Below are positions 2,201 through 38,463 of a DNA stretch of 62,094 nucleotides, in pieces. The position numbers and the translations under genes were made by a program. Numbering within the stretch: position 1 is the stretch's first letter; each line of letters begins with the position of its first letter. Source of the DNA: Flavobacteriales bacterium (GTDB lineage Bacteria > Bacteroidota > Bacteroidia > Flavobacteriales > UBA7312); NCBI GenBank assembly GCA_002714805.1, contig PAYK01000010.1, positions 96,238-158,331 of the forward strand, written 5' to 3'. A model generated the notes under the pieces. That model was not told the origin of the DNA. It did not search any database and worked only from the letters and a program-made list of their open reading frames with translations.

Positions 2201-2226
2201 TTTTCAATGTATTAAAAAATTTAAAA

Positions 2227-2250
2227 GAGAAAACTATAACAGTCTTCTCT
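2227..2250 (-). terminator. Candidate intrinsic terminator of the receptor/T9SS/PorV-like operon
   Basis: Arms 2227-2236 and 2241-2250 form a 10-bp stem with one mismatch around a 4-base loop. Read on the minus strand it follows the PorV-like stop (2280) and is followed by a T-rich run, as expected for an intrinsic terminator before greA. Confidence 0.5.
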
Positions 2251-2279
2251 CTAAACCAAGTTACAAAATTTATTTTTAT

Positions 2280-3311
2280 TTAAAGATCTATTCTAACACC
2301 TATTGTGTTTAATAATCCAAAATGGTCAGCACTACGTAAGGAATAATCTACTCCAAATGTTGTCTCACCACTTAACGGAAGTTCAACAGTAAAACCAGCG
2401 GACACACCAGTTAAATCTGTACTACCATCAGATAGTCCATCTTCGTAAATATAACCTCCTCTTAAAGAAACTAATTCCTTAAATGAATATTCTAATCCAA
2501 ACCTAAATTGATCATTTTGAAAAGAATTTGAAGTAAATGTACCCGCGGTTGTTAAACGATGATTTGTTGGGAGTAATGGTAAATCATATGCTAGACCTAT
2601 GTTTAATAAAGAAGGTAATTCAAAGGAATTTGTTCGTTGCTCTAAAGTCATTGTATATTCTCCATCAGGAGCATTACCTCTAAAAGATATACCATCACCA
2701 TTAAACACCATAGTAGGACCAACATTTTTTAGGGCAATACCAAATTTAATATGATCACTATCTCCTGTTATATATTGAATACCTGCGTCTAAGGCTATAC
2801 CACTAGCGGTTACGTCAGAAGTACCTTCGATAATAGCCTTCATAACAAAACCACCATAAATACTATTAGAAAAAGCCTTTGAAAAGCCAACATTAAGATT
2901 CGTAGAAGATATGCTGTAAGTTCCCAAGCCGCCATCAGGAAGTAATTCAGTAGTGATCGTTATATCTGCTAAAGACATAGAAGATATAGCGACAGCCAAT
3001 ACTGATGACTCACTCATACGTTGTGAAAACCCAAAAGAATTTATTGGTATATCTGCTATCCAAGAAGAGCGAGAGAATATTAGCTCTGTTTTATTTGTAA
3101 AAGCTAAACCTGCAACATTTCCATACAATGATTCTAAGCCTCTAACTGAAGCTATATTTGAACCACCCAAACCAGAAGACCTAGCCCAAGGATTAATCAA
3201 TAATTGACTAGCTCCTGCAGAACCAACTCTATCTGGATTACCAGCAAAAAGGTTAGCTGTACAAATGCATGCTAAAAGCATAACCCAAAAGTATTTTAAT
3301 GATCGTATCAT
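2280..3311 (-). CDS. PorV/PorQ family outer-membrane protein
   Basis: This 343-residue protein has an N-terminal signal peptide (cleavage expected after LFA around residue 23). It then has the PorV/PorQ (UPF0164-like) opening, GSAGASQLLINPWARSSGLGG, followed by repeated amphipathic strands ending in VRIDL, consistent with an outer-membrane beta-barrel. PorV relatives act as carriers for T9SS substrates or as surface attachment partners. It is last in a three-gene operon, 19 bases after the 1373-aa T9SS cargo gene, which suggests that it serves that cargo. It is distinct from the canonical PorV encoded at 33500-34690. Confidence 0.82.
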   Translation of the reverse strand: MIRSLKYFWVMLLACICTANLFAGNPDRVGSAGASQLLINPWARSSGLGGSNIASVRGLESLYGNVAGLAFTNKTELIFSRSSWIADIPINSFGFSQRMSESSVLAVAISSMSLADITITTELLPDGGLGTYSISSTNLNVGFSKAFSNSIYGGFVMKAIIEGTSDVTASGIALDAGIQYITGDSDHIKFGIALKNVGPTMVFNGDGISFRGNAPDGEYTMTLEQRTNSFELPSLLNIGLAYDLPLLPTNHRLTTAGTFTSNSFQNDQFRFGLEYSFKELVSLRGGYIYEDGLSDGSTDLTGVSAGFTVELPLSGETTFGVDYSLRSADHFGLLNTIGVRIDL

Positions 3312-3330
3312 TTTTAATTACAATTAAATA

Positions 3331-6300
3331 TTAAAAGGTGTCTAAGTCTATTGGACGTAAAACACCAAACCATTTTAAATTTCTTTCTTTACCTATACTA
3401 GGAACGCTTACATTAATAATGTATGCACCACTAGCAATAGGAATACCTTTTTGATTTTTCAAATCCCAATCGATGGATGCTCCTTGGCTATCTTTATTAA
3501 GTTGTCTAATTAAAGATCCATTAACAGTATAAATAGAAATTACACACTCATCTGGAAGATTAGTAATTCTTACTCTAGTATCTAATTGACCGCCGTTTTC
3601 GACACCTTCATAAGTAGAATATGCATAATAAGGATTTGGCACAACATTAATTAAATCCATTACGGAATCTACTTGACTTTCTTCAGTCATTATGGTAGGT
3701 GCTATTCCTTCTGTAGAGAACCTATAGTTTGGATAATTAACTTTCTTATAAGAAACCGTCATTGACACAGGAGAGCTTTGTGATCCTCCACTAACATTAT
3801 CAACATAATATACATCACCTAAACTGTTAGCTTGTCTCCAATTATCATTAATCTTAACAGAATCTGAAGCTGAGATAGATGTAATTTCATAAGCATATAA
3901 CCTATCGTAGTTAGTGAGAAATTCTTTTATTGAAGTTGGTGTAGTTGTAATAGTTATATCATCAGAATACTCAGTATCATCTAACTCAATCATCTCTCTA
4001 TATTCTCTTGATACGTCAATATTAATAGTGACATCTGATGAAAGTAAATCATATCCTTCTTTCAACAATGGAACAGATGTCCACATCATCTCTCTAAAGA
4101 AAGATAATTTAGTACTTGGTGATGCTAAATCTAATTTTGCCTGAGCGCATTCATCATATCTAGATGAATGAACATAAACAAAGTGTTTACCGCCAAGATA
4201 ATAACTTCCATTTGCCCATGTTGGAATTTGTGTCTGAATTCTTGTTGATGGATTCCATAGCATATCATCACCATTATCAGAGCTTAGCCATGAGTCTTCT
4301 GCAAACATTATATTTAATCTTTCACCTGTTTCCTTGTTTATTGCGTATCCTGGAAACCAGCCCATTCCATTTCCGGTACCATCAGGATTACCATCTTTAT
4401 CAACTGACTCGTCTGATCGTAAATCTAATTTTGCAGTACCACCTTTAGCAAATACAGGATTGTCCTGGGACTCTAGCACTACGCATCTTGACCACAAAGA
4501 TTTATCATCAGTTATAACTACTTTAATACTTTGTAAATTTCTCATTCTATTGCCTAGTTGAGATTGAGGCAATGTATAAGTTGTACTACTAAAATTGGTA
4601 TTTATAGAATAACCAGGTCCATCTAAATATGGAGACACTAATCTAAAGGGTGCCCAAGTTCCATTAACAACATCTTCAAATACACCATCAGGATCACCAT
4701 CAATATCATTAAAAACTGCGTTTGCTGCAGAAATATAAGAGCCAGCGTGTATCCAGTTTCTACCCCACAAATAAGTATTTGTAACAGAAGTTTCTCCGTC
4801 TTCTTCATCAACATCTCTAACACCACCTAACCAAGGATTATACTCATTTTCAAATTCAATTGATGAAGAAATCAAACGATTACTTTCATCAAAATTAGCT
4901 GAGTTGCTTACGTAATCCCAAGCAGGAGGATTTTCTTGATTGACTTCAACAGCAAATCCATACTCACTGAATAATTGCTGATTTCCGCTACCAATAGATG
5001 CATCAGCAACAATACTTTGGTTAGTGTTTAGATTTACTAGTTCCCATTTACTTACTGTCTGATCTAAAACAATATGTCTTGGATCTGAGGATGAAGCATT
5101 ATATACCTCACCATACATTTTTAAAGCAAATTCTGATTGAGTAAGTTTTCTTGGATCAATAACTTGAACATCTATTGGACCAAAATTAGCTTGATAAACA
5201 GGTTCTTCCGAATTATGATTAACAGATGTTAAAATATCAATTTCAGTTTGATCTGTAAGCGCAAGCTCAAATCCACCATTCCCAGCACCTGATACTTTCT
5301 TAATTTCAACACCGTCCCCTACCTCGGCATTTAATTTTGTTGTAAATGGTTTATGAGGAATTCCTGTATATACTTTAATATTTTTACGACCAGCTTTATA
5401 GGGCTTTTGTTGACCATCAAGTTTATCTGGATTTGTTGAATCATATTCCTTGTACTTGTTATAACCATAAGCTACAGACATAAAATAATATGATTGATTA
5501 TTAACTAACTTTTTATTCTCTAAAGCAAATTTATCTTCAGTAATAGAAATTGAATGTTGATTCCCCTGATTAGAAGCTTCTACTTCTAAAGTAGGCACAT
5601 TTGCTCCAATAGACACATCAAAATTATAATTAATCAAATTCACAACTGTATCTTCAATATCACATTGATAAACCAAACGGGCTAAATCAGGATTATCTAA
5701 ATCAGTAACACTAACAGCAACAGATGCTAATTGATACAACTGATAACCTTGAAATCTGAAATATGGATCCCAATTCTGACCTGGGGGAGAAATTATCAAT
5801 GGGTCAAACTCAATATATTGTTCTAAAAAGTTATTAGATGTTGGTCCATTAGATAAATTGAGAACAAGTTCTTGATCTAGTTCAACTATCGATACATCTG
5901 GTGCATCAGGACCATTAAGTACTTGAAAACAGTTATCAAATAAAGCTTGAGCTTTATCATCAGCTAAACGAATTAATTCAACAGAAGCAAGATTATCGCC
6001 AGCGGTTGCCCTTGCCCATACTACACCAGTCGTAATTCTGTTTACTGCTCCGGGCTCTAAAGTAAAAGGACCTGCAGACTGAACGAAACGTCTGTCGGCA
6101 GGATCATTACCTGAATTTTTCTCAGTCCACCCTTCAGGCTCTTCCCAATCCGCGGTAGTTATCAATCCATCTGTACCCCAGCCATAAGGATCTGTATCTC
6201 CGGGGAACATAAACTTAGCAGGGGTGGAACCTCCACGACCAGTACCACCATATGTGATTTCCAAACCATCTTTCCACTTACCTACTAGATAGTTATAAAT

Positions 6301-7452
6301 ATGCTGTCCATTTTCAGGGTTTCCTGTGACAGTAAAATCATTATTATAATATACAAATCGTGACATAATTGATTGCTCTCCAGGCTCATCAATTATACTG
6401 TCTCTATCATTATCAATTCCATCATCTATATCTGCAAGAGGACCTTGAAAAAAGTCTACACCAATTGCTGGTGGAGTTGTACCATAACCAGTAGCACCCT
6501 CATCATTATCGTCACCATTATAACAATATCCAAATCCGCGAGCTACATCACAACCTACGTAATCATCATCATATTTTCCTAAATCAGGATCAACCCACTG
6601 TCCAAAATATGCATCGTTTAATTGAATAGTAGCTTTATTAATGATTTTATAATTATAGAAAGTCATATTATTAATCTCATCATTCGTTGCAAAAGCAAAA
6701 GCTTGAGCACGTATTTCTAAACCAATTGGATCAGCACCAGTTTCAGAATGAATATTGCCTTTGTCATTAAAAATCCAATATAATGTTTGATCGCCATATA
6801 TTAGATCATCTTCGTTACAATCTAAATTTCCATCGATATCATATCTAGGATAATCACCATCTGCAGGATTATATTCACCATCGTCATTATTATCGTAGTA
6901 AGGAGCCAAAAATTGATAATCTCCGTCTATACCATTACCAGGCCAATTTGCTATACTCAAAGGAATTGTATAATCAGGATATGCTGAATTATCATTGTAC
7001 CAAGCAATAAATTCATCTACTTCTTGACGTGTTATAGCAAAATGTTTATCATAATCCTCACATGTTTGAGAACTAATATCACCATTTTCATCCAAAGGAC
7101 CAGTCCAAAAGTCATTACCTGTTTGACGATATGTCATTGCAGCAGCTTTTAATTGCTCTCCGGCATCAATACCTGCTATCCAAAGTGCACCTGCAAACAT
7201 AGAATGCTTATTGCTATTTTTTGGAATTTCATATCTGGCATCACTCAAGTTCCACCACATATCGCCACCACCCATTATGGTAGTTCTAACATTATTAATA
7301 TTTAAATCTGTCATAGCCTGAGAAGGCGTACAATCAGCTGCTACTCTTGCTAAGCTTGATTGCGAGTTAGAACTATATGTTACAACATTTTCTTTTGCAA
7401 TTAATGAAAATGAAGATATGCTGGCTAAAATGACTAATACTATTTTGTTCAT
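3331..7452 (-). CDS. Large T9SS-secreted protein with C-terminal sorting domain
   Basis: A 1373-residue protein with a signal peptide (residues 1-20). An early conserved-looking region contains GGGDMWWNLSDARYEIP. Several Asp/Asn-rich loops (for example DNNDDGEYNPADGDYP and DGIDNDRDSIIDE) resemble calcium-binding repeats. The last about 90 residues (from VVPNPYYAYS, with SGAYIINV) form a type A-like T9SS sorting domain. Unusually, the tail continues to KWFGVLRPIDLDTF rather than ending in the basic motif. It should therefore be exported through T9SS and placed at the surface. No catalytic domain was recognised. It lies between a TonB-dependent receptor (21 bases upstream) and a PorV-like gene (19 bases downstream), so a shared role is inferred. 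Confidence 0.8.
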   Translation of the reverse strand: MNKIVLVILASISSFSLIAKENVVTYSSNSQSSLARVAADCTPSQAMTDLNINNVRTTIMGGGDMWWNLSDARYEIPKNSNKHSMFAGALWIAGIDAGEQLKAAAMTYRQTGNDFWTGPLDENGDISSQTCEDYDKHFAITRQEVDEFIAWYNDNSAYPDYTIPLSIANWPGNGIDGDYQFLAPYYDNNDDGEYNPADGDYPRYDIDGNLDCNEDDLIYGDQTLYWIFNDKGNIHSETGADPIGLEIRAQAFAFATNDEINNMTFYNYKIINKATIQLNDAYFGQWVDPDLGKYDDDYVGCDVARGFGYCYNGDDNDEGATGYGTTPPAIGVDFFQGPLADIDDGIDNDRDSIIDEPGEQSIMSRFVYYNNDFTVTGNPENGQHIYNYLVGKWKDGLEITYGGTGRGGSTPAKFMFPGDTDPYGWGTDGLITTADWEEPEGWTEKNSGNDPADRRFVQSAGPFTLEPGAVNRITTGVVWARATAGDNLASVELIRLADDKAQALFDNCFQVLNGPDAPDVSIVELDQELVLNLSNGPTSNNFLEQYIEFDPLIISPPGQNWDPYFRFQGYQLYQLASVAVSVTDLDNPDLARLVYQCDIEDTVVNLINYNFDVSIGANVPTLEVEASNQGNQHSISITEDKFALENKKLVNNQSYYFMSVAYGYNKYKEYDSTNPDKLDGQQKPYKAGRKNIKVYTGIPHKPFTTKLNAEVGDGVEIKKVSGAGNGGFELALTDQTEIDILTSVNHNSEEPVYQANFGPIDVQVIDPRKLTQSEFALKMYGEVYNASSSDPRHIVLDQTVSKWELVNLNTNQSIVADASIGSGNQQLFSEYGFAVEVNQENPPAWDYVSNSANFDESNRLISSSIEFENEYNPWLGGVRDVDEEDGETSVTNTYLWGRNWIHAGSYISAANAVFNDIDGDPDGVFEDVVNGTWAPFRLVSPYLDGPGYSINTNFSSTTYTLPQSQLGNRMRNLQSIKVVITDDKSLWSRCVVLESQDNPVFAKGGTAKLDLRSDESVDKDGNPDGTGNGMGWFPGYAINKETGERLNIMFAEDSWLSSDNGDDMLWNPSTRIQTQIPTWANGSYYLGGKHFVYVHSSRYDECAQAKLDLASPSTKLSFFREMMWTSVPLLKEGYDLLSSDVTINIDVSREYREMIELDDTEYSDDITITTTPTSIKEFLTNYDRLYAYEITSISASDSVKINDNWRQANSLGDVYYVDNVSGGSQSSPVSMTVSYKKVNYPNYRFSTEGIAPTIMTEESQVDSVMDLINVVPNPYYAYSTYEGVENGGQLDTRVRITNLPDECVISIYTVNGSLIRQLNKDSQGASIDWDLKNQKGIPIASGAYIINVSVPSIGKERNLKWFGVLRPIDLDTF

Positions 7453-7473
7453 GTCTATACTATTTATCTTAGA

Positions 7474-10400
7474 CTAAAAGTTAATTTCAATTCCTAAACG
7501 AGCCATTCTAGGCAAGTTATAATTTGATGGATTATTAATCTTCATCATATACATATCTCTAAATGATTGTGGATCATTTTGAGCGTTAATATCTGTTTGA
7601 GCGGATGCATCTGATAGATAACCATCATCATCAGGATTTCCAGTTGCACGATAAACTGATCTAACATTTTTAGTATTTAATAAGTTTTGCACTTGTAAAT
7701 AAATATTAAATCCTAATTTTCTTTTATTATCTAATTGACCAACATCCAATGTGAATTTCTTATTAACTTTTGTATTGATTCTTACCGTCCAAGGGTTACG
7801 AGATCCGTTCAAACTTCCTTCTAATGTTGAACGTTGATTAATTCCAAATGCACCATCTTGGGTTATATTTGATTGTCTTGAGTATGGTGTACCTGAACCG
7901 GCAATTACAATAAAGTTTGCGCCTGTATTAGCAAATATTTGTTTGTTGAACCATACCGGACCATTATAGTCCTTTCCACTATCAAACCTGTAGTCCATGC
8001 TTAAGTTAAAAGCATGTCGCTGATCATAACTTAGTGGAATTGTTGTTCTTAAATTGGGTTGGCCAGTATTAACTAAACTATATCCTGAAGTGGCGGAAGA
8101 TCCTGTACCATTAGCAAATTGTAATGTGTAGTTTGCCGACATAGAAACATTTCCACTTCTTCTAAGTTCATACAAAGCAGAAAAACCTTTTACAGTACTA
8201 AAATCAATATTTCCATATGTAAGGTAGGAAACAGGATAAGAGTAATTTGTCTTAACAACCTGAATCATGTCTCTTAATTCCCTGTAAAATGCAGAAAGTG
8301 TTAGAGATGAATTTAAATTTAATGTTTGAGCGAAACCTAATTCAAAATCAACAGTTTTCTCAGATTTTAAATTAGGATTATTAACAAATGCGTTAACAGT
8401 CTCTTCTAAGTATAAATAACTAATCGGATTTAATCTATTTCCTGTAGGTGGTCTTTGTGTCAAAACATCGTAATGAGCAAAGAATTGTGCCTCATCTGAA
8501 ATAGGAAAAGAGAAAGATATTCTTGGAGAAAAATCTGTTTGAGGCTCATAATCTTTGAACACCGGTATACTATCCTCTGAATTTACTAAATATGGTGTGA
8601 TCTGCCCAGTAGTTGAAGCTTGGGCTAATACTTTAGGATCATTAATAGCTTCTCCATTTTGGTCAAACCAATCTTGGCCATTTCTATATCCAACTACCTC
8701 AGTAGGATTATCTAAATCGTTAACATAAACTACATAGTCATCTCCAATACCTACAGGTCTAACATAATCACCACCTAAAAGATCTACATTAGAATTTGCT
8801 GTATATGTGCTATATAAACAATATTCATCGGCTAATACAGATTGATTAGCATCATATCTATCTACACGTAACCCAATACTAAAAATTAAATCGTCAAAAG
8901 CAAACTTATCTTGAATATATCCCGCAGTATATATAGGTTCAAAAGCACCTATATTTCTAGAATAATCATTGTTGTCATTTCTTTCAGAAAAGAAATCATC
9001 AATGGATGCAGCTGAATTTAGTTCATCACCTTTATAATCATATCCATAATAAGAAATCAATCCATTTTCGTTAAGTTCATCTGCACTAAACATATCAATG
9101 GACAATTGATTAGGATCAAAGGAATCGATATCAATAAACTCGTCATCAGATAAGTTAAACTTTTCTCTAAGGTTAGCATCAAATCTAGATTGTGCATCTA
9201 TATTAACTAATCTATCGTAATAAACCTCGTCATAAGTTCCTAATGGGTTAAATTGAGGATTAGCTAAATCTAATTCTAAAATATGGAAATTTGTAAGTTG
9301 TCTAGCTAAACCCCAAAGAGAGTTTGGAGCAACGAACCAGCTTCTATCTGTTCTTTTCTCATATTCGAAACCAAATTGTATAGCGTGATCTTTAATGTCA
9401 GCAGATCCATTTGCACGAACAGAAAATTGCTCTAATTGTTGCTTTCCATAAGACCCATACTGATCGCCATAATTGTAATATAAAGAATAAACATTTCTAG
9501 GTCCTTGACCATTTAAAAGTCCTAATTCTCCTAAATCATTTGCAGTTCTAATAACACCTCTATTACCGCTTCCACCAAAGGACAAACTTTGCAATTCATT
9601 TTCACTGAACATATCATAATACTGTTGAGTATACGCAGCTAAATCAGGATTAGAAGAATTACTTCCATCAAAAGTCATTAATGTATCTATAAATCCTCGA
9701 TGTATAAAACCACTCACTCCACTTGCAGTATCCTCTCCGAAGGTAAAAAATCTATCCTTATATGTATTGAACTTTCCAACGTGGCCATATCTGAATAAAT
9801 CTTTACCGTGGTTGGGATTTCTTCTTTCAAAATCATTTTTTGTGTAGTCTACAGTAATGTTATAGTATGCATTTTTAATATTTGAAGCAGACTCTTCGTC
9901 GCCTTCTTGAGCTCCAAAACGCTGAGTAAATCTTGCATATGTTCTCCAAGTATTTCTTTCCTCTTCCGAATTATTGTGCCAATTAAGCAAAGAATAAGTA
10001 TAAACAAAGGGGTGATCTACAGAATGACTTACCGCACCGCCTAATGTTAAATTAGTTTTTAGTGTTGGCTTAAAATCTAACTTTCCTGAAAGATTGAACC
10101 CGCTAGAGTTTGTATTCATCTTGGCTTGAATATTTTCGAAATCATCTGCTCTTAAAAAAGTTGCATTACTTAATAACCCAATAGAAGAAGATTGTTGATT
10201 AGGAACAGCAACAAATAAATTATTTTTCAAATCATCTAAACGATTGTCTTTAATTTTCCAAACACCTACAGCTGAGGGACTATTATCATCAATGTTTCTA
10301 AATTCACCAGCTAGAAAATAACCTAAAATAGCTCTACCCTTAGATCCATCTGACTTAATTTCTTTATAAATAGGTCCCGATAAACCAAAACCAAGTAGGC

Positions 10401-11136
10401 CATAATTATAATCATCAAACATATGGGATGCAACTACTTCTGCACCTCCAAACAATTGATTAGATGGCCCCTTTGATGTTACACTTATAATACCACCAGT
10501 TGCGTCTCCATACATAGCAGATAGGCCACTAGACATAACAGTAATTTGTTCAATTGCACTTTGAGGTAAAGCAAGACTTCCTCTTACCTTAACACCGTCA
10601 ACATAATAATCTGTAGCTTCAGATCTAGAACCCCTAACATTGACAGATGATCCTTCATCAGACTGGTATACTCCTGCTGCTGTTGCTGCTACAGAAGTTA
10701 CACTTCTAGTGGGCATAGAACGTATTTCCTCACTAGTCACTGTTTTGCCGCCTAAATTATCAGGATCTAGTAAAGGTTTTTCATCTTTAATTACAACTTC
10801 TTCAATATCAATACCCTCTGATAATTGAACATCTCTAAATGTTATTTTATTTGAAGAAACCACGATACCTTCTAAAGTTACTTGTCCGTATCCAACAAAT
10901 GATACGATTAAGTCATATGTGCCCGGATCTAATGGTTTAATTGTATAATTTCCATCAAAGTCAGTTGTGACACCAGCAATTTGATTACCATTTCTTTTAG
11001 CAACGACATTAGCAAATGGGACGGTTTCACCGGTATTTTTGTCTGTAATTTTTCCTTCTAAAGAACCCGATTGAGCAAATACAGATGAGCTAATCAAAAT
11101 TAAGCTTATCAGAAGCAAGTATAATTTATTGAACAT
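7474..11136 (-). CDS. TonB-dependent receptor with N-terminal carboxypeptidase-regulatory-like domain
   Basis: A 1220-residue outer-membrane receptor. After a signal peptide (residues 1-21) comes a carboxypeptidase-D regulatory-like beta-sandwich (about 25-105, GSLEGKITDKNTGETVPFAN). The TonB plug follows (about 125-225, with VNVRGSRSEATDYYVDGVKV and MYGDATGGIISV), then a long beta-barrel ending in GIEINF. The domain order resembles SusC-like receptors, but no SusD partner is present. Instead the downstream genes encode a T9SS cargo and a PorV-like barrel. The substrate is unknown. An 18-bp perfect inverted repeat lies 30-47 bases upstream of the start. Confidence 0.9.
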   Translation of the reverse strand: MFNKLYLLLISLILISSSVFAQSGSLEGKITDKNTGETVPFANVVAKRNGNQIAGVTTDFDGNYTIKPLDPGTYDLIVSFVGYGQVTLEGIVVSSNKITFRDVQLSEGIDIEEVVIKDEKPLLDPDNLGGKTVTSEEIRSMPTRSVTSVAATAAGVYQSDEGSSVNVRGSRSEATDYYVDGVKVRGSLALPQSAIEQITVMSSGLSAMYGDATGGIISVTSKGPSNQLFGGAEVVASHMFDDYNYGLLGFGLSGPIYKEIKSDGSKGRAILGYFLAGEFRNIDDNSPSAVGVWKIKDNRLDDLKNNLFVAVPNQQSSSIGLLSNATFLRADDFENIQAKMNTNSSGFNLSGKLDFKPTLKTNLTLGGAVSHSVDHPFVYTYSLLNWHNNSEEERNTWRTYARFTQRFGAQEGDEESASNIKNAYYNITVDYTKNDFERRNPNHGKDLFRYGHVGKFNTYKDRFFTFGEDTASGVSGFIHRGFIDTLMTFDGSNSSNPDLAAYTQQYYDMFSENELQSLSFGGSGNRGVIRTANDLGELGLLNGQGPRNVYSLYYNYGDQYGSYGKQQLEQFSVRANGSADIKDHAIQFGFEYEKRTDRSWFVAPNSLWGLARQLTNFHILELDLANPQFNPLGTYDEVYYDRLVNIDAQSRFDANLREKFNLSDDEFIDIDSFDPNQLSIDMFSADELNENGLISYYGYDYKGDELNSAASIDDFFSERNDNNDYSRNIGAFEPIYTAGYIQDKFAFDDLIFSIGLRVDRYDANQSVLADEYCLYSTYTANSNVDLLGGDYVRPVGIGDDYVVYVNDLDNPTEVVGYRNGQDWFDQNGEAINDPKVLAQASTTGQITPYLVNSEDSIPVFKDYEPQTDFSPRISFSFPISDEAQFFAHYDVLTQRPPTGNRLNPISYLYLEETVNAFVNNPNLKSEKTVDFELGFAQTLNLNSSLTLSAFYRELRDMIQVVKTNYSYPVSYLTYGNIDFSTVKGFSALYELRRSGNVSMSANYTLQFANGTGSSATSGYSLVNTGQPNLRTTIPLSYDQRHAFNLSMDYRFDSGKDYNGPVWFNKQIFANTGANFIVIAGSGTPYSRQSNITQDGAFGINQRSTLEGSLNGSRNPWTVRINTKVNKKFTLDVGQLDNKRKLGFNIYLQVQNLLNTKNVRSVYRATGNPDDDGYLSDASAQTDINAQNDPQSFRDMYMMKINNPSNYNLPRMARLGIEINF

Positions 11137-11165: not shown

Positions 11166-11183
11166 TTTACAAAAGTTTGTAAA
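11166..11183. promoter_or_regulatory. Perfect inverted repeat, possible operator
   Basis: The sequence TTTACAAA-AG-TTTGTAAA is a perfect 8-bp inverted repeat with a 2-base centre. It lies 30-47 bases upstream of the TonB receptor start (11136) and about 80 bases before the divergent lipoprotein start (11264). Its position suits a dimeric regulator acting on the receptor operon. AT-rich sequence makes chance possible, and no regulator gene is adjacent. Confidence 0.35.
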
Positions 11184-11263
11184 TATAGAAATTAAATGAA
11201 GATTATCTCAATGATAAGTTAAAAAATTTGTAGAATTACAAAATGAAATAAAAGCCGGTAAGT

Positions 11264-11674
11264 ATGTGTAAATATTTTATTATTTTTTCAATAATTTTTA
11301 TTGCTTTTTCCTGTGGAGATGAAACTAATCAAATACCAAACGTTCCTGTCAACTTTAGCATTCAAGCATCTGAACTTGGAGGGGTAGGAAGCGCAATATA
11401 TACCCAAGATATTTATGGTGTTAGAGGCATAATCATTTATCATAAAAATAACAATGAGTATATAGCATTTGAAAGAACATGTACGTTTAGACCTACAAAT
11501 GATTGCTCCGTAGTTCAATTAAACGACGAACTAAATCCAAGTTTTATGCTAGATAGCTGTTGTGAATCAAGCTTCTTACTAGACGATGGAACACCTTTTA
11601 GCGGACCTGCTCTTTTGCCACTTAAACAGTACAGCACTAGTTATGATGGCACATACATATACATTACAAATTAA
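11264..11674 (+). CDS. Rieske-like-fold lipoprotein lacking cluster histidines
   Basis: A 136-residue protein with a short lipoprotein signal and lipobox (AFSCGD, lipidated Cys about 17). The body resembles the Rieske domain layout: a first motif RTCTF, a second motif SCCESSF, then a GPALLPLKQY end typical of the fold. In a true Rieske protein these motifs are C-x-H and C-x-x-H; here both histidine positions are replaced (Phe and Glu). A standard two-iron two-sulfur cluster is therefore unlikely. Extra cysteines could form disulfides. Function is unknown. The stop overlaps the convergent T9SS gene by 4 bases. Confidence 0.65.
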   Translation: MCKYFIIFSIIFIAFSCGDETNQIPNVPVNFSIQASELGGVGSAIYTQDIYGVRGIIIYHKNNNEYIAFERTCTFRPTNDCSVVQLNDELNPSFMLDSCCESSFLLDDGTPFSGPALLPLKQYSTSYDGTYIYITN

Positions 11675-13434
11675 TTGAGTAAAAATCGCTTAATTATATC
11701 CTGTTCATTATTGGAGTTTAATTTTAATAAGTACGCGCCTTTTTCTAATTTGTCTAAATTCAATCGAAGGGTATTTTCCAATACTTGCACATTAATTAAT
11801 TTACGACCTTGCATATCATAAATCTCTAAGTAACTGTAGTAATCTAGATCGCCACCAATAAAAACATCTATAAAATTAGTTGCAGGATTCGGAAAAATTG
11901 AAAGTTCAACATCAATTAAATCAGCAATATTAGTTGTGCTGAAAAAAATCTCATTCGAATTATATTTACAGCCCCATTGATCAACTAAAACCAAACTATA
12001 ACTACCTTCTTGATCTGCAATTATTAAATGTGAACTTTGATCTAAAATTTGTTCTCCATCTAAAAACCACTGATACTCAAAGATTGAAGACTCCAAAAAA
12101 CTAATGGTATCGAAACTTAAAACTAACTCTGGCGTAAAATCATCACAAACAACGATAGTTTGATCTTCTGAAGCAGCAGAGCAACCATATTCATTAGTTG
12201 ACAACAAATAATAATAGCCTGAATTTTCCGGAACATATGAAATATTGTTTGCATTTGGTATAGGACTTTGAACATAATACCATTGATAATTCACATTCGA
12301 AGAATCTGAATCTAATGTCAAAGTAATATTTTCTTCATCAAATGAAAAACTAGGTTGAATTGGCGAGTCATATACATAGATTGTGTCAATAACGTCAGCA
12401 AACGGCAATGGTTGAATTTCTAAAATTGTATACTCAACAACTAAATCACCATTTGTTACAGTTGAAGAACTTGAATAGCCGTTAAAACTAACTGAACCCA
12501 AATTATCATCAGATGTAAACGGACCATCTTGATCCCAGACCTGAATAGAATAATTTTGATTTGCTAGAGGAATATTATCTAATTCCCATGAAACTGGAAA
12601 AGAATTATCAACTTGAATACTAGACGAATAAATTTGATTACCATTCTCATCAAATAAATAAAAATATGGATCAGGATCTGTAAAAATATCTTCAGCATCT
12701 TGTCCCCATCCTGATGCATTACTAACTTGTACTGAGGTCAAAAAGTATAGAGATTCAGATGAATTGTGTGCTGTATAATGCACCTCATAAACACCTGCTT
12801 CTGTAAATAGCTGAGATGTTGGATTTTCTAAGTTAGAAACATTTCCATTACCAAAGTCCCATGAGTACACAGCTAAATTTGGATTATTATTAATGAAATC
12901 AACGGTTAATGGAGCACATCCAGAAAAGTTAGTCATTGCAAATCCACTATTTGCGGAAATATTTGGCAATATAGTTAATGGAAGACTAAAGCTAATTTCT
13001 TCAGGTCCAACCACCCAAGAAAGCTCATGAGTTGCTACAACAGTGACATCAACATTAAAATCACCATACTCTAATGGTATACCGTAAAGATTTACACAAC
13101 CATACTGAGTGATAGTTGGATTATAATGACAATTATCAAATGAATTATCGCACTCCCAAGATAATCCAATTGGTAAAGATATCGATGTAATATGATAATC
13201 TTCAAAAACAATTAAATTTTCGCCAAAACCTTCGATTTCAACAATTGTATCTAAGGGAAGTACAAAAGTCAAATCTTGATTATAGTTTTGATTTACATAT
13301 CCAGTAGCTAGAGTATCAGGTGATAAACCATAATTAGCTGATACAGGCACAAAGTTTTCATCAGGAACACATTGTCCATTTAAATCTAAACTAATTAATA
13401 AAATAAAAAGAAAAATTAAATTAAATTTATACAT
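11671..13434 (-). CDS. T9SS-secreted protein with PKD and C2-like domains
   Basis: A 587-residue secreted protein. It has a signal peptide (residues 1-21) and a putative Ig-like N-terminal region. A PKD domain follows at about 160-238 (SGCAPLTVDFINN, YSWDFGNG, GVYEVHYTA). Next is a C2-like region with an Asp-rich loop (about 240-340; DPDPYFYLFDENG, VWDQDGPFTSDDNLG), then Ig-like modules. The end is a clear type A T9SS sorting domain (FPNPATNFIDV to IKRFLLN). No catalytic residues were recognised; an adhesin or surface-scaffold role is inference. The start codon lies inside one arm of a 16-bp perfect inverted repeat that also follows ahcY. Confidence 0.82.
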   Translation of the reverse strand: MYKFNLIFLFILLISLDLNGQCVPDENFVPVSANYGLSPDTLATGYVNQNYNQDLTFVLPLDTIVEIEGFGENLIVFEDYHITSISLPIGLSWECDNSFDNCHYNPTITQYGCVNLYGIPLEYGDFNVDVTVVATHELSWVVGPEEISFSLPLTILPNISANSGFAMTNFSGCAPLTVDFINNNPNLAVYSWDFGNGNVSNLENPTSQLFTEAGVYEVHYTAHNSSESLYFLTSVQVSNASGWGQDAEDIFTDPDPYFYLFDENGNQIYSSSIQVDNSFPVSWELDNIPLANQNYSIQVWDQDGPFTSDDNLGSVSFNGYSSSSTVTNGDLVVEYTILEIQPLPFADVIDTIYVYDSPIQPSFSFDEENITLTLDSDSSNVNYQWYYVQSPIPNANNISYVPENSGYYYLLSTNEYGCSAASEDQTIVVCDDFTPELVLSFDTISFLESSIFEYQWFLDGEQILDQSSHLIIADQEGSYSLVLVDQWGCKYNSNEIFFSTTNIADLIDVELSIFPNPATNFIDVFIGGDLDYYSYLEIYDMQGRKLINVQVLENTLRLNLDKLEKGAYLLKLNSNNEQDIIKRFLLN

Positions 13435-33018: not shown

Positions 33019-33510
33019 TTATTCTATTTTTAATAAAACAACAACATGTGCTGCTATACCCTTTTCTTTTCCAATAAAACCCATTTTTTCAGATGTTGTA
33101 GCTTTAATAGATAATTGATTAACATTTATTTTCATACAATTTGCAAGAACTTTTTGCATTTCTGGAACATAAGAATTGACTTTGGGATTTTCTAAGCAAA
33201 TTGTTGAATCTATATTGACAATCTCATAATTTTTTTTTCTTACTAATGCCATTACATTTCTTAATAATATCTTACTATCAACACCTTTATACTCAGGTGA
33301 ATTATCAGGAAAATGAAAACCTATATCTCGCATATTAGCAGCCCCCAATATAGCATCGCAAATAGAATGAATTAGAACATCAGCATCAGAATGTCCAACA
33401 GAACCCTTATTATGTAAAATATGAATACCACCTAGAATTAGGTCTTCTCCTAATTTTAGTTGATGAACATCATATCCATATCCAATTCTTATATTAAAAT
33501 TATTCTTCAA
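33019..33510 (-). CDS. ispF: 2-C-methyl-D-erythritol 2,4-cyclodiphosphate synthase
   Basis: IspF converts CDP-ME-2-phosphate to the cyclic diphosphate in the MEP isoprenoid pathway. Zinc ligands and active-site motifs appear as GYGYDVHQL (Asp and His) and GHSDADVLIHSICDA; the C-terminus KATTSEKMGFIGKEKGI is typical. The 163 residues match. It overlaps the porV stop by 11 bases, so it is probably co-transcribed with porU-porV. Confidence 0.96.
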   Translation of the reverse strand: MKNNFNIRIGYGYDVHQLKLGEDLILGGIHILHNKGSVGHSDADVLIHSICDAILGAANMRDIGFHFPDNSPEYKGVDSKILLRNVMALVRKKNYEIVNIDSTICLENPKVNSYVPEMQKVLANCMKINVNQLSIKATTSEKMGFIGKEKGIAAHVVVLLKIE

Positions 33511-34690
33511 TTTCTTCTATAGCGTTAAAATCAAAAGTTAGAGCAAATCTTAGAGTATTTGATAATGGATTTACTGCATTAACCTCATCTCTACCTTGAA
33601 TTGGAATTAGATATGAAAAATCTAATCCAAAGACATTGTATCTTAATCCTGCACCTAAAGTAAAAAACTGTCGATCACCTTTTGTTGGATGCTCATAGAA
33701 AAAACCTGAACGGACTGCAAACTGTTGATCATACCAATATTCTAAACCTGTAGAATATATTAACTCTCTGATTTCTCGATCTCCAATAGGAGCATCTGAG
33801 AAAGATTGAAAAATACCGCTTATAACTGAAACATTTGGATCTTGTCCACTAATAATATCGCCATCATCATTATAAATCGGAGGTGTAGGAACAAGTAGCT
33901 TGTTTATATTAAATTCAAATGCCAAAGAATTATAATCATCAAGCTCTGTTGACAAAGAAGATCCAAGTCTAAGGTTTGTTGGAATAAAATCTTTATCAAT
34001 AGTTTCTGTATATGAGACCTTTGCTCCAATATTAGATATATTCATACCAATTGCCCAATTCATTTGTTGGCTAGCTAATCTAATTTCTTTTGTAAAATAT
34101 CCTGATATATCACCAGCTACAGTATTTGCAGGTTTAGTAGCTAATGTACCGACTTGTTGACCACCGGTTAAATTTGAATAAACATATCTCAGTGAAACTC
34201 CCGTGGAAAAATAGGGTGATAGTTTGAGTGAATATGCGCCATCTAACGAAAATTCATTAGGGCTAAAAGATCCTAAGGGATTGTTATTTGCATCGGTAAA
34301 ATTAATCTCACCTAAAGTAAAATATCTTAGCGAAAAACCTATAGCCTGATTATCATCCAACCTTTTATATCCAGATAAATAAGATAAATTGATGTCAGGA
34401 ACTAATGATTTTAGCCATGGAGTATAACACACTGAAAAACCAATATCATTGTCAATAAAAGCATATTTAGCAGGATTCCAATGCATAGACATTGCATCAG
34501 GAGAGGATGCTACACCTACATCTCCCATACCTCCTGATTTAGCATCAGGGCTAATTATTAAAAAAGGAACAGAGGTTGTGATTGTATTTAACCAATTATC
34601 AAGATTGTCGGATTGTTGAGAAAATACATTAACTGATAAGGTTGAAAATAATATAATTAAGATAGAAAAGCAATTCCTAATTTTATTCAT
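33500..34690 (-). CDS. porV: Type IX secretion outer-membrane protein PorV
   Basis: PorV (LptO) is an outer-membrane beta-barrel that carries T9SS cargo from the translocon to the PorU sortase. The 396-residue protein has a signal peptide (ending VFSQQ), the family opening SVPFLIISPDAKSGGMGDVGVASSPDAMSMHWNPAK (seen in parts near residues 40-75), and the barrel ending region GAGLRYNVFGLDFSYLIP. It is adjacent to porU, the usual pairing. A paralogue lies at 2280-3311. Confidence 0.94.
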   Translation of the reverse strand: MNKIRNCFSILIILFSTLSVNVFSQQSDNLDNWLNTITTSVPFLIISPDAKSGGMGDVGVASSPDAMSMHWNPAKYAFIDNDIGFSVCYTPWLKSLVPDINLSYLSGYKRLDDNQAIGFSLRYFTLGEINFTDANNNPLGSFSPNEFSLDGAYSLKLSPYFSTGVSLRYVYSNLTGGQQVGTLATKPANTVAGDISGYFTKEIRLASQQMNWAIGMNISNIGAKVSYTETIDKDFIPTNLRLGSSLSTELDDYNSLAFEFNINKLLVPTPPIYNDDGDIISGQDPNVSVISGIFQSFSDAPIGDREIRELIYSTGLEYWYDQQFAVRSGFFYEHPTKGDRQFFTLGAGLRYNVFGLDFSYLIPIQGRDEVNAVNPLSNTLRFALTFDFNAIEEIEE

Positions 34691-34746: not shown

Positions 34747-37700
34747 TTAATTTATTAGTATTAATCTACCAGAATTATTACTTACTTCACCACTTGAAAG
34801 AGAAGCAAATAAAGAGAATATATAAACTCCAGGCTTGAGTTTTACACCTGTATCAGATTTTCCATCCCATTGAATTGGTCCATATTTATACCCATTGGGT
34901 ATAATATTGTCTTTTATTTCCTTTACAACATTTCCTTTCAAATCAATAATTCTTAATACTATTTTCATTTCTTCATTGTTTTGATTATGATCAAAATAAA
35001 AAGATGTATAATCAAATACAGGATTTGGATAATTTAATAGATTTTGTATGGTTAGATTATTTGAGGATATAACAGTAAATTCTATATTTTCTTGTGAAGA
35101 ATTATTATGCACATCCCATACCCTAACAGTTAGGGTATGATTTCCTTCTGATAGTGTATTAAATGGGTAGTCTATAATTCCACTCTTGAAGCTATTAATA
35201 TCAGATTCGTAAAAATCATTTAGCACGATTGGGCTAGCAGATTCTTGATCTAAAATTGCTAACATATCATGTCCTATCCCATTTCCTACTGTGTTGATCC
35301 CACTTTCGTCATATAACATAGCATATAATGACGGATTTTTGTCTGTTATACCTCCAGATATAAAATTCGTATCGTTCATAAATAAAGCAATTCGAGGCCC
35401 ATCATAATCATCTATATATTCTGAAGATGTTCCTCCAATTACCATATCTAAATTATAACCATAAGCATCAAATAATTCATCTTCAACTAATCCTTTTGCA
35501 TAAAGACTAATTTTTCCGTTTCCGTAATCATAATTTATATCTTTAGGAACAATAAATGAAAATGAAAATTCCCCATTTTCAACTGAAGATTTTCCTTTAA
35601 AAATTAGATTTTTTTGTAAATCAAATACAAAAACAGGAGATTCGTCCTGACCAAGTGTTTGATAGTCTCTAGGTTTATCAAATACTTTTGGATAAACTAT
35701 ACCATTAAAATTATTTAGTTTAATACCATTACTTTGTATTTCGCCTGAAATAGTGACCATCCCTAGTGCTTTAGCACTATCCTGAATTTGATTTAAAACG
35801 ATATTATATTTTGGATATGCTAATTGTAAGGCAGGATCACCCAATAATGTAAAATTCCTGTGATTTGTATTAGAAACATCAATGACATTATTTTTAGTTC
35901 TGATTAACACATCTCCTAACCTACTAGAGTTTTTATCATCGTCTGTAAAAATATTTTCTAAAAAAGCAGTATTTAAATCTAAATTACTTCCAGTAAAAAC
36001 TACTCTTGAAGTGGTCAAAAGTGCTATTGCTCCTCCATTTTTTTTAAGAAAAACTTGTTCACCTGCTGAAACGCGATCTGGATCATCATATCTACTAAAT
36101 TCACAAGTGGCTGTCATAAAAAGAGGTAATTTGTTTTCATTTCTCCATGAATTTATGTCGTCAATTTCTAAAATTCTTTCGTGAGCCCATCCCATTTCTC
36201 CACCATGTCCAGTGTAATTAACTAAAAACATCCCTTTATTTATTGCATCAGAAATTGCATCATTTACACTTTTACAACGTTGACCACCGGTCGATGATTC
36301 CTGTTGGTATGCATCTAAATATATTTTATCTACGTTATATGACGGATAATTAATTGTAATAAAATCAGCGAGTTGTTCAGCCTGTAAGGAATGAACTGTT
36401 TCTATTTCGTCATTATCATCTCCAACAAAACACATATTTAATCGCCAATCACCATATGACTCATTTGAGCTATAAGATATTACTTTATCTACAGCAATTT
36501 TTGCTTCTGCTTCAGTTTGAACAGGAAATCTTCCTACACCAATATCCAAAAATGGAATATTTTCAGCATTAGATAAAATACTTTCTTCATCATCTAGTAA
36601 TGCAAAAAAATCATCTGACACATAAGAATAAAGTTCGTTGGTTGAATTATTCGACTGATATGATATCACAAAATTAGTATTATTTAAAAGTCTATTTTTT
36701 GGATCATAAGAAGCATCACCAAACAACAATAAATACCTTAATGGGGTTTCCTGTTCGTAAAGCATTTTTGCAAAATCTCTAATAGCAGAAACATCTTGAC
36801 GACCTGATGAGAATTCGTTAAAAATTTGCTGTGGAGTAACAACCTCAACATTTAAATTATTATCCCTGTGAAAATTTGCTAATCTATTAGCTTGCTCTAA
36901 AAATAAATTTGGCGAAATAATTAAATAATCAACATCTCTAAGTGAATGGAGGTTTTGATTTGTAACCTGACCTATTAAATTGGGTGATAAATAAGCTTCA
37001 TTAAATGCTATAAATTCTTTTAATGTATCGGTTAAAATATTAAAAGATAGAATCGAGCCTGAGTTTTGTAAATCTATTGATTGAGGTGAAAGTGGCAAGG
37101 TAACATCCCAAACATTAGTAGATTGTGAGAAATTGGAAATTTGAAATTGACTAACATTATTTGATTTCACTGAAGATAAAGATCTAAAAGACATTTGATT
37201 ACCAGATAATTTTAAATTCCTGTGAGCATTAACTTCAATATAGTCAATATATCCCTTAGCTAAAGTCGATTGACTATTAAACTCTAATTCAAGTTCTATT
37301 TCATCAGATGTTGGGCTAATTTCCTTTTCAAAAACTTTCAGGTTGGCTTTATTGTAGCTTCCACTAATTCCTGAAATTGATATGTTTTGACTTAACATAC
37401 CTGATGCATTAATTGTAAAATTAGAATTATATGGGGCTGGTGAATTAGCTGCCAAAGCTATTTTTAAATTAACTTCATCAATTATATTAGGGAAATCAAA
37501 GTAAAACGATTTGGAATCAACTAAATCAAAAACATCTCCGTACCAATTTTTACCAGATTTAACAAAATTCACCTCATCATTTTCGTGAATTTTATAATCA
37601 TCAAAACTTGTGATTGTTGTATCATAGTAAGACAATGATTGAAATGAATTTATGCGCTTTCCCTCACCCAAATCAGCAGTAATAAAGTAATAACTACTGT

Positions 37701-38463
37701 TGTCGTAATAATGTTGTTGATGACTAAAAAATCCTGAATCATTAATCTTCCACTGATTTGGTGACTGACCATAAAATAATATATAGTCATTTTCATCAAA
37801 AACACCGTCATTCTGACCAACTAATTGTATTGCTAGTTCTTCTAAATCAACAGTTCTATCAGAAAAATTATCAATTGGCAATAATCCTCCGGGGTGTCCA
37901 TAAATTCTTAAATTCTTAGGGTTTAATGTAGAAACATCAAAACCTAAAGTTTCTAAATCTTGATATGACAATCTATAAATACCATCAGTATTTAAGCTAA
38001 TTTTATACCAATTTCCTGATGACAGTACAGAATTATCAATTGAAGCATTAGTATTTTTTAAAACCTGTGAGTTTGAACAATTTAATTCTATTTCTAAAAA
38101 AAGTATTTTTTTAAAATGATTATTTGTTTTTACAAATGGGAAAATTTCTCCTCTTACAATAAGTTGCTTATTCTTAGTACCACTTTTAAAACTTAAATTT
38201 GGAATTGAATCAACATTTAAATCTTTTATTATGTTTATTTCAGAAGAATCACAAGGAACATATATTATATTATTAATAATAACATCAACATTAGTATTGC
38301 AGTCTGACTTTTGAAATTCAAAAATAAAATTTTGAGACTTTGAATCATTGACAGTGATTAAGTCATTTTCTAGTTTGTAATCAAGAAAATGATATTGGGT
38401 GTTCTGCGCATATAGATCTAAGTGTAAAAGCGTAATAAAAATTATCGTAAAAAAATAATACAT
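34747..38463 (-). CDS. porU: Type IX secretion system sortase PorU
   Basis: PorU is the gingipain-like C25 peptidase that removes the T9SS sorting domain and attaches cargo at the cell surface. The 1238-residue protein has a signal peptide (residues 1-19) and an N-terminal region. The C25 domain lies in its central part, with catalytic His753 in YTGHGGEMGW and Cys787 in TATCEFSRYDDP. A C-terminal sorting-like beta-domain (YPNPVFDYTSFY, WDGKSDTGVKLKPGVYIF) is present, as in known PorU. It is followed by porV. Confidence 0.95.
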   Translation of the reverse strand: MYYFFTIIFITLLHLDLYAQNTQYHFLDYKLENDLITVNDSKSQNFIFEFQKSDCNTNVDVIINNIIYVPCDSSEINIIKDLNVDSIPNLSFKSGTKNKQLIVRGEIFPFVKTNNHFKKILFLEIELNCSNSQVLKNTNASIDNSVLSSGNWYKISLNTDGIYRLSYQDLETLGFDVSTLNPKNLRIYGHPGGLLPIDNFSDRTVDLEELAIQLVGQNDGVFDENDYILFYGQSPNQWKINDSGFFSHQQHYYDNSSYYFITADLGEGKRINSFQSLSYYDTTITSFDDYKIHENDEVNFVKSGKNWYGDVFDLVDSKSFYFDFPNIIDEVNLKIALAANSPAPYNSNFTINASGMLSQNISISGISGSYNKANLKVFEKEISPTSDEIELELEFNSQSTLAKGYIDYIEVNAHRNLKLSGNQMSFRSLSSVKSNNVSQFQISNFSQSTNVWDVTLPLSPQSIDLQNSGSILSFNILTDTLKEFIAFNEAYLSPNLIGQVTNQNLHSLRDVDYLIISPNLFLEQANRLANFHRDNNLNVEVVTPQQIFNEFSSGRQDVSAIRDFAKMLYEQETPLRYLLLFGDASYDPKNRLLNNTNFVISYQSNNSTNELYSYVSDDFFALLDDEESILSNAENIPFLDIGVGRFPVQTEAEAKIAVDKVISYSSNESYGDWRLNMCFVGDDNDEIETVHSLQAEQLADFITINYPSYNVDKIYLDAYQQESSTGGQRCKSVNDAISDAINKGMFLVNYTGHGGEMGWAHERILEIDDINSWRNENKLPLFMTATCEFSRYDDPDRVSAGEQVFLKKNGGAIALLTTSRVVFTGSNLDLNTAFLENIFTDDDKNSSRLGDVLIRTKNNVIDVSNTNHRNFTLLGDPALQLAYPKYNIVLNQIQDSAKALGMVTISGEIQSNGIKLNNFNGIVYPKVFDKPRDYQTLGQDESPVFVFDLQKNLIFKGKSSVENGEFSFSFIVPKDINYDYGNGKISLYAKGLVEDELFDAYGYNLDMVIGGTSSEYIDDYDGPRIALFMNDTNFISGGITDKNPSLYAMLYDESGINTVGNGIGHDMLAILDQESASPIVLNDFYESDINSFKSGIIDYPFNTLSEGNHTLTVRVWDVHNNSSQENIEFTVISSNNLTIQNLLNYPNPVFDYTSFYFDHNQNNEEMKIVLRIIDLKGNVVKEIKDNIIPNGYKYGPIQWDGKSDTGVKLKPGVYIFSLFASLSSGEVSNNSGRLILIN

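Follow-up and report, generated by a model that had tools for sequence, protein, structure and literature searches.

Three adjacent genes in a Flavobacteriales contig (PAYK01000010.1), encoding a TonB-dependent receptor (TBDR), a giant cargo of the type IX secretion system (T9SS), and an outer-membrane barrel of the PorV/PorQ family, form a trio that recurs in the same order across Bacteroidota far beyond chance. With moderate confidence, we propose that the cargo is held at the membrane by its cognate barrel and acts with the TonB receptor in a SusCD-like uptake complex. The trio lies near one end of the 62,094-nucleotide stretch of DNA that we analyzed (referred to here as the window), and the coordinates, strand, order, and spacing of its genes were exactly those given by an earlier sequence-only reading. 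The features of the region are as follows.

11179-11187, minus strand: promoter-like motif TATATTTAC, ~45 bases upstream of the receptor start
7474-11136, minus strand: TBDR, 1220 aa, with a CarboxypepD_reg N-terminal extension, plug, and barrel
7453-7473, minus strand: TBDR-cargo spacer, 21 bases (median, 23 in 123 trios)
3331-7452, minus strand: giant T9SS cargo, 1373 aa, the middle gene of the trio, with a Sec signal peptide that lacks a lipobox
5353-7398, minus strand: N-terminal half of the cargo, residues 19-700 (AlphaFold2, Foldseek)
3334-3684, minus strand: predicted C-terminal sorting domain (CTD) of the cargo, residues ~1257-1373, PorZ/PorU-like (PorZ-model matches, Foldseek)
3334-3357, minus strand: RPIDLDTF extension past the last beta-strand of the CTD, residues 1366-1373 (sequence, model)
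3312-3330, minus strand: cargo-barrel spacer, 19 bases (median, 27 in 123 trios)
2280-3311, minus strand: PorV/PorQ-family outer-membrane barrel, 343 aa (NCBIfam, barrel tree)
2224-2252, minus strand: candidate intrinsic terminator with a weak stem and a T-rich tail, between the barrel gene and greA

The motif TATATTTAC also precedes the receptor gene in many relatives and is likely a promoter element. A perfect palindrome (11166-11183) in the same upstream region was dropped as a candidate, being absent from relatives and present in 6.5% of shuffles. The terminator that the three genes had been thought to share is plausible, but its stem contains only 3 G-C pairs, and such sites were not more frequent than expected by chance (7 in the region versus 4.5 expected). 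Beyond the receptor gene lies a small secreted or lipoprotein-like open reading frame (11264-11674, plus strand), which is divergent from the receptor and syntenic in nearly all genomes of the order; two of its homologues matched Rieske below threshold (E, 0.08 and 0.2) and appear to lack the usual ligand pattern. It is followed by an ordinary type A T9SS cargo with a PKD domain (11671-13434, minus strand).

In all 20 same-order genomes fetched via the cargo, the order TBDR-cargo-barrel, followed by greA-HIT-ruvC, was kept. Given that the whole neighborhood is conserved within the order, this observation alone is no proof of joint function. Barrel regions from other orders and classes contained the trio with its gene order intact among quite different neighbors. 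Across Bacteroidota, the full trio was present at 123 of 140 loci (including 80 named cargo loci), a count that gives, for loci retrieved by way of the cargo or the barrel, how frequently the remaining members were present. Several of the other loci were contig ends; others were unlinked cargo paralogues, with one barrel elsewhere in the genome. This comparison of neighborhoods had been named beforehand as the check on which the idea of a functional trio could fail, and the idea survived it.

In Bacteroidia, the trio was mostly single copy and fixed beside greA/HIT/ruvC and SAHH, while several copies per genome were detected outside this class. The barrel profile matched in 146 of the 297 genomes of a phylum sample, with up to 7 matches per genome. 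When we read 20 further PorV-family copies (L242-L261) from genomes of other classes with 9 to 19 such barrels, approximately 14 were located in a unit of TBDR, CTD-bearing cargo, and barrel, and three more were directly behind a TBDR. The trio thus looks like a widespread surface machine, and the PorV/PorQ family appears to have given rise to numerous cargo-specific barrels that are linked to TonB receptors, the trio barrel being present in about half of the 297 genomes. Shared ancestry of the locus, with no joint function of the genes, would account for the data within the order, where the neighborhood is conserved well beyond the trio. This explanation is strongly disfavored, to the point that we reject it, by the varied contexts in other classes, the multiple copies per genome, and the co-divergence of the three proteins as cassettes (described below).

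The barrel scored 125.6 bits against the PorV/PorQ family model NF033709 (cut-off, 90) and had only a sub-threshold PorV match in Pfam. It is neither PorV (NF033710; 47.8 bits; cut-off, 250) nor PorQ (NF033711; 63.3 bits; cut-off, 220), and in the barrel tree it fell outside the clades of both. An assignment to PorV2 (NF052325; 34.9 bits; cut-off, 325) was likewise rejected, as was one to PorP/SprF, for which the Pfam and NCBIfam scans yielded no PorP_SprF match. The canonical porV of the window, from which the barrel had been held to be distinct, is indeed a separate gene (33500-34690; NF033710, 492.8 bits) adjoining porU (34747-38463). The genome to which the window belongs contains three PorV-family barrels (i.e., PorV, a PorQ-like copy at C5, and the trio barrel).

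The barrel co-occurs with the T9SS. SprA was present in all 146 barrel-positive genomes, and the barrel was detected in 0 of 68 SprA-negative genomes (Fisher P, ~1e-24; this value ignores phylogeny, and a single family accounts for most of the listed SprA-negative genomes). Two families of the same order (f3 and f6), which are probably Flavobacteriaceae and Weeksellaceae, encoded SprA, but their listed genomes gave no match for the barrel. The lack of a match in the sampled genomes of these two large families, which probably include laboratory models, may explain why the trio has not been described. The genome of the window, which is small (1.67 Mb), encodes two full-length SprA homologues (G000:C8:2910-9953 and G000:C16:31014-37982).

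The C-terminus of the cargo (...KWFGVLRPIDLDTF) was the only part of the protein with a Pfam match, a sub-threshold one to FlgD_ig. The cargo scored below the type A CTD model (TIGR04183; 15.0 bits versus 23) and was absent among the 47 Por_Secre_tail (PF18962) places of its genome. An AlphaFold2 model (pLDDT, 81) had a C-terminal beta-sandwich, for which PorZ (5m11; E, 1.7e-6) and PorU (6za2) ranked first in a Foldseek search; the best remaining matches included FlgD as well as the CTDs of NucA and RemZ in their translocon-bound form (8glk/8gl8). The predicted fold of the domain is that of a T9SS sorting domain, most similar to those of PorZ and PorU. A near-invariant lysine of such domains contacts PorV (PMC10994853); its counterpart in the cargo, K1360, was invariant in 13 aligned cargos. 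The predicted fold and this near-terminal lysine mark the protein as a T9SS CTD cargo, whatever its type. The cargo itself is not PorZ (NF052228; 34.4 bits versus 260, in the CTD only), and the true PorZ of the genome is encoded at G000:C9. Among 54 diverse cargo C-terminal halves, the PorZ model matched 46, in its CTD; the type A model matched 43, mostly weakly, and the PorU model matched 23.

PorV anchors PorU, PorQ anchors PorZ, and both anchored proteins retain the CTD (PMC5562754 and PMC10202324). By analogy with these pairs, anchoring of the cargo by its cognate barrel is well supported: each comprises an exported protein, a barrel of the PorV/PorQ family, and a similar CTD, the retention of which we infer for the trio. 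The trio differs from PorZ-PorQ and PorU-PorV in its other passenger, its eight-residue CTD extension, and its gene linkage to a TonB receptor, and it lies outside the sorting machine as far as is known. Alternatively, the barrel might be a specialized shuttle that takes the cargo from SprA to PorU for cleavage and release or linkage to LPS, with the TBDR merely coregulated. The type A matches of 43 of the 54 cargo C-terminal halves and the shuttling of cleaved substrates by PorV itself (PMC5562754) are in line with such a role, but the nearest CTDs, those of PorZ and PorU, are retained, type B cargos stay on the surface through their cognate PorP/SprF shuttles (PMC12618676), and the invariable receptor neighbor would be left unexplained. 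We consider this alternative improbable.

Anchoring by a dedicated barrel would also resemble the arrangement of type B cargos, for which cognate shuttle barrels are established (PMC12618676) and for which, as in the trio, a dedicated barrel gene adjoins the cargo gene and the barrel is the proposed anchor. The two systems differ in that the trio CTD is PorZ/type A-like, its barrel belongs to the PorV/PorQ family, and the partner is a TBDR rather than a PorE-like protein. PorV2 (NF052325) and PorU2 (NF052324) offer another parallel, an uncharacterized PorV-family paralogue, but the trio lacks a C25 sortase and its barrel scored far below the PorV2 cut-off. The cognate-barrel principle is thus known; a version with a PorV-family barrel, a TonB receptor, and a match between cargo tail and barrel was not found in the literature searched. 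Likewise, we found no description of the trio in the open literature, most of the subscription literature being outside the search.

In PorZ, PorU, and type A cargos, the last beta-strand of the CTD is also the end of the protein (...KILFIK, ...RLILIN, and ...KRFLLN), whereas the window cargo runs eight residues further (RPIDLDTF), a segment that was unordered in the AlphaFold2 model. This tail had been called unusual, which holds for the cargo of the window, but the extension proved to be conserved throughout a clade. In Bacteroidia it typically reads RPxDL[DN]xF; other classes have a different extension (...IIxxQxxLxxF/Y), and a minority of trios have a plain cargo end with no extension. Given that plain, type A-like cargo ends occur in the same gene order, the trio arrangement does not require the tail.

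The type of cargo tail matched the phylogeny of the barrel. A tree of 66 barrels placed all 37 of those located beside extended-tail cargos in one clade (support, 100/100), apart from PorV, PorQ, and the 18 trio barrels beside cargos scored as plain-ended (one of these 18 cargos, L122, has an atypical end). Tail type changed once on this tree, compared with 21.7 times in shuffles. This pattern fits recognition of the cargo tail by the barrel; because it reflects a single evolutionary split, co-inheritance alone could also have produced it. Sixteen barrel positions were conserved within the extended-tail clade and different elsewhere. The correspondence between CTD extension type and barrel clade offers a testable rule for how the T9SS chooses the destination of a cargo and, if true, would amount to a sorting code that pairs CTD tails with PorV-family barrels.

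Pairwise distances of the three proteins were correlated (TBDR-barrel, 0.934; TBDR-CTD, 0.890; barrel-CTD, 0.879). Moreover, in three multicassette genomes, the copies of all three proteins grouped by cassette across genomes (e.g., L101 with L105 and L100 with L103), indicating that whole cassettes are inherited without exchange of partners.

A strict dedication of the barrel to one cargo was excluded by seven of the eight genomes with unlinked cargo paralogues, each of which contained exactly one barrel and at least two cargo copies, most of them with extended tails. The barrel thus appears to serve the tail-bearing class of cargo, sometimes with two cargos per genome. The earlier proposal of a receptor and a PorV-type carrier that serve one specific cargo is therefore partly supported: the barrel is conserved, co-inherited, linked to the T9SS, and distinct from canonical PorV, but not confined to a single cargo. 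The full-length cargo paralogues that lacked a complete trio (L177 and L179 [contig PACT01000037.1], L138, L140, L149, L180, L186, and L194) were mostly found in genomes with a single barrel elsewhere. On one contig, the trio was split into a TBDR-cargo pair and a cargo-barrel pair.

The receptor contained the Pfam domains PF13620, PF13715, PF07715, and PF00593 (i.e., CarboxypepD_reg, Plug, and TonB barrel), and it shares with SusCD-type receptors a CarboxypepD N-terminal extension. The trio is not a SusCD system; none of its proteins matched SusC or SusD in the Pfam and NCBIfam scans, no SusD lipoprotein is encoded next to the receptor, and the signal peptide of the cargo lacks a lipobox, which makes lipid anchoring unlikely and argues against a SusD-type lipoprotein. 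The likeness to SusCD consists of the receptor type, an adjacent large surface partner, and expanded paralogues; the difference is that the partner in the trio would be exported by the T9SS and anchored by a barrel.

In the mechanism that we favor, the cargo would be exported in two steps, first via Sec and then via the SprA translocon of the T9SS. Its PorZ/PorU-like CTD, with the subfamily-specific extension, would be taken over by the cognate barrel rather than by PorV. Retained and uncut by PorU, the CTD would make the barrel the permanent membrane anchor of the cargo, and the anchored cargo would capture substrate at the surface as a partner of the TBDR, as SusD does for SusC. The binding of barrel to CTD, a physical complex of cargo and TBDR, and a role in uptake are elements of this mechanism that we infer. 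The unlinked cargo paralogues are a counterpoint to it, since in their case the cargo gene can lack an adjacent receptor gene.

An anchored pair with no part in uptake is the main competing explanation, in which cargo and barrel would form a PorQ-PorZ-like surface assembly and the TBDR would be a structural or assembly partner or a sensor of envelope state. We regard this arrangement, which might serve envelope biogenesis, adhesion, or attachment, as unlikely. In its favor, PorZ, whose CTD the cargo CTD most resembles, belongs to the attachment machinery; the Bacteroidia trio, which is mostly single copy, strongly conserved, and fixed among its neighbors, resembles a housekeeping locus more than a nutrient locus; and there is a precedent in a FadL-like barrel that holds a surface protein in the BAM complex (PMC12578637). 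However, the diversified multicopy cassettes of other classes look substrate specific, the receptor has the plug and CarboxypepD extension of a transporter, and the resemblance of the cargo to PorZ ends with the CTD.

Uptake with a barrel-anchored partner suggests an alternative to SusCD in which the surface partner is placed by secretion, not by lipidation. Its extension to a phylum-wide machine, consisting of a TonB receptor, a T9SS-exported giant capture protein, and a PorV-type barrel that reads a C-terminal address tag, with substrate-specific paralogues outside Bacteroidia, is a possibility that we rate slightly short of even. If true, such a machine would establish a direct link between type IX secretion and the import of nutrients.

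As for the substrate, the cargo had been described as having no known enzyme domain, and neither Pfam nor NCBIfam yielded an enzyme match. Its N-terminal half was modeled with high confidence (AlphaFold2; pLDDT, 90; pTM, 0.87), had no Pfam match in 54 members, and resembled GH15, GH116, and GH94 enzymes in a Foldseek search (E, ~1e-6 to 1e-4; TM score, only 0.26); a PDB sequence search with the cargo returned no match. By our reading, made from the families and not residue by residue, the glycoside hydrolase match falls in the N-terminal beta-sandwich region. This modeled similarity is at most a hint of carbohydrate binding, and a glycan substrate can only be guessed at, given how weak the fold match is. 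The N-terminal domain was also detected on shorter proteins of ~550 to 730 aa (G015, G022, G028, and G055), indicating a module that exists outside the trio.
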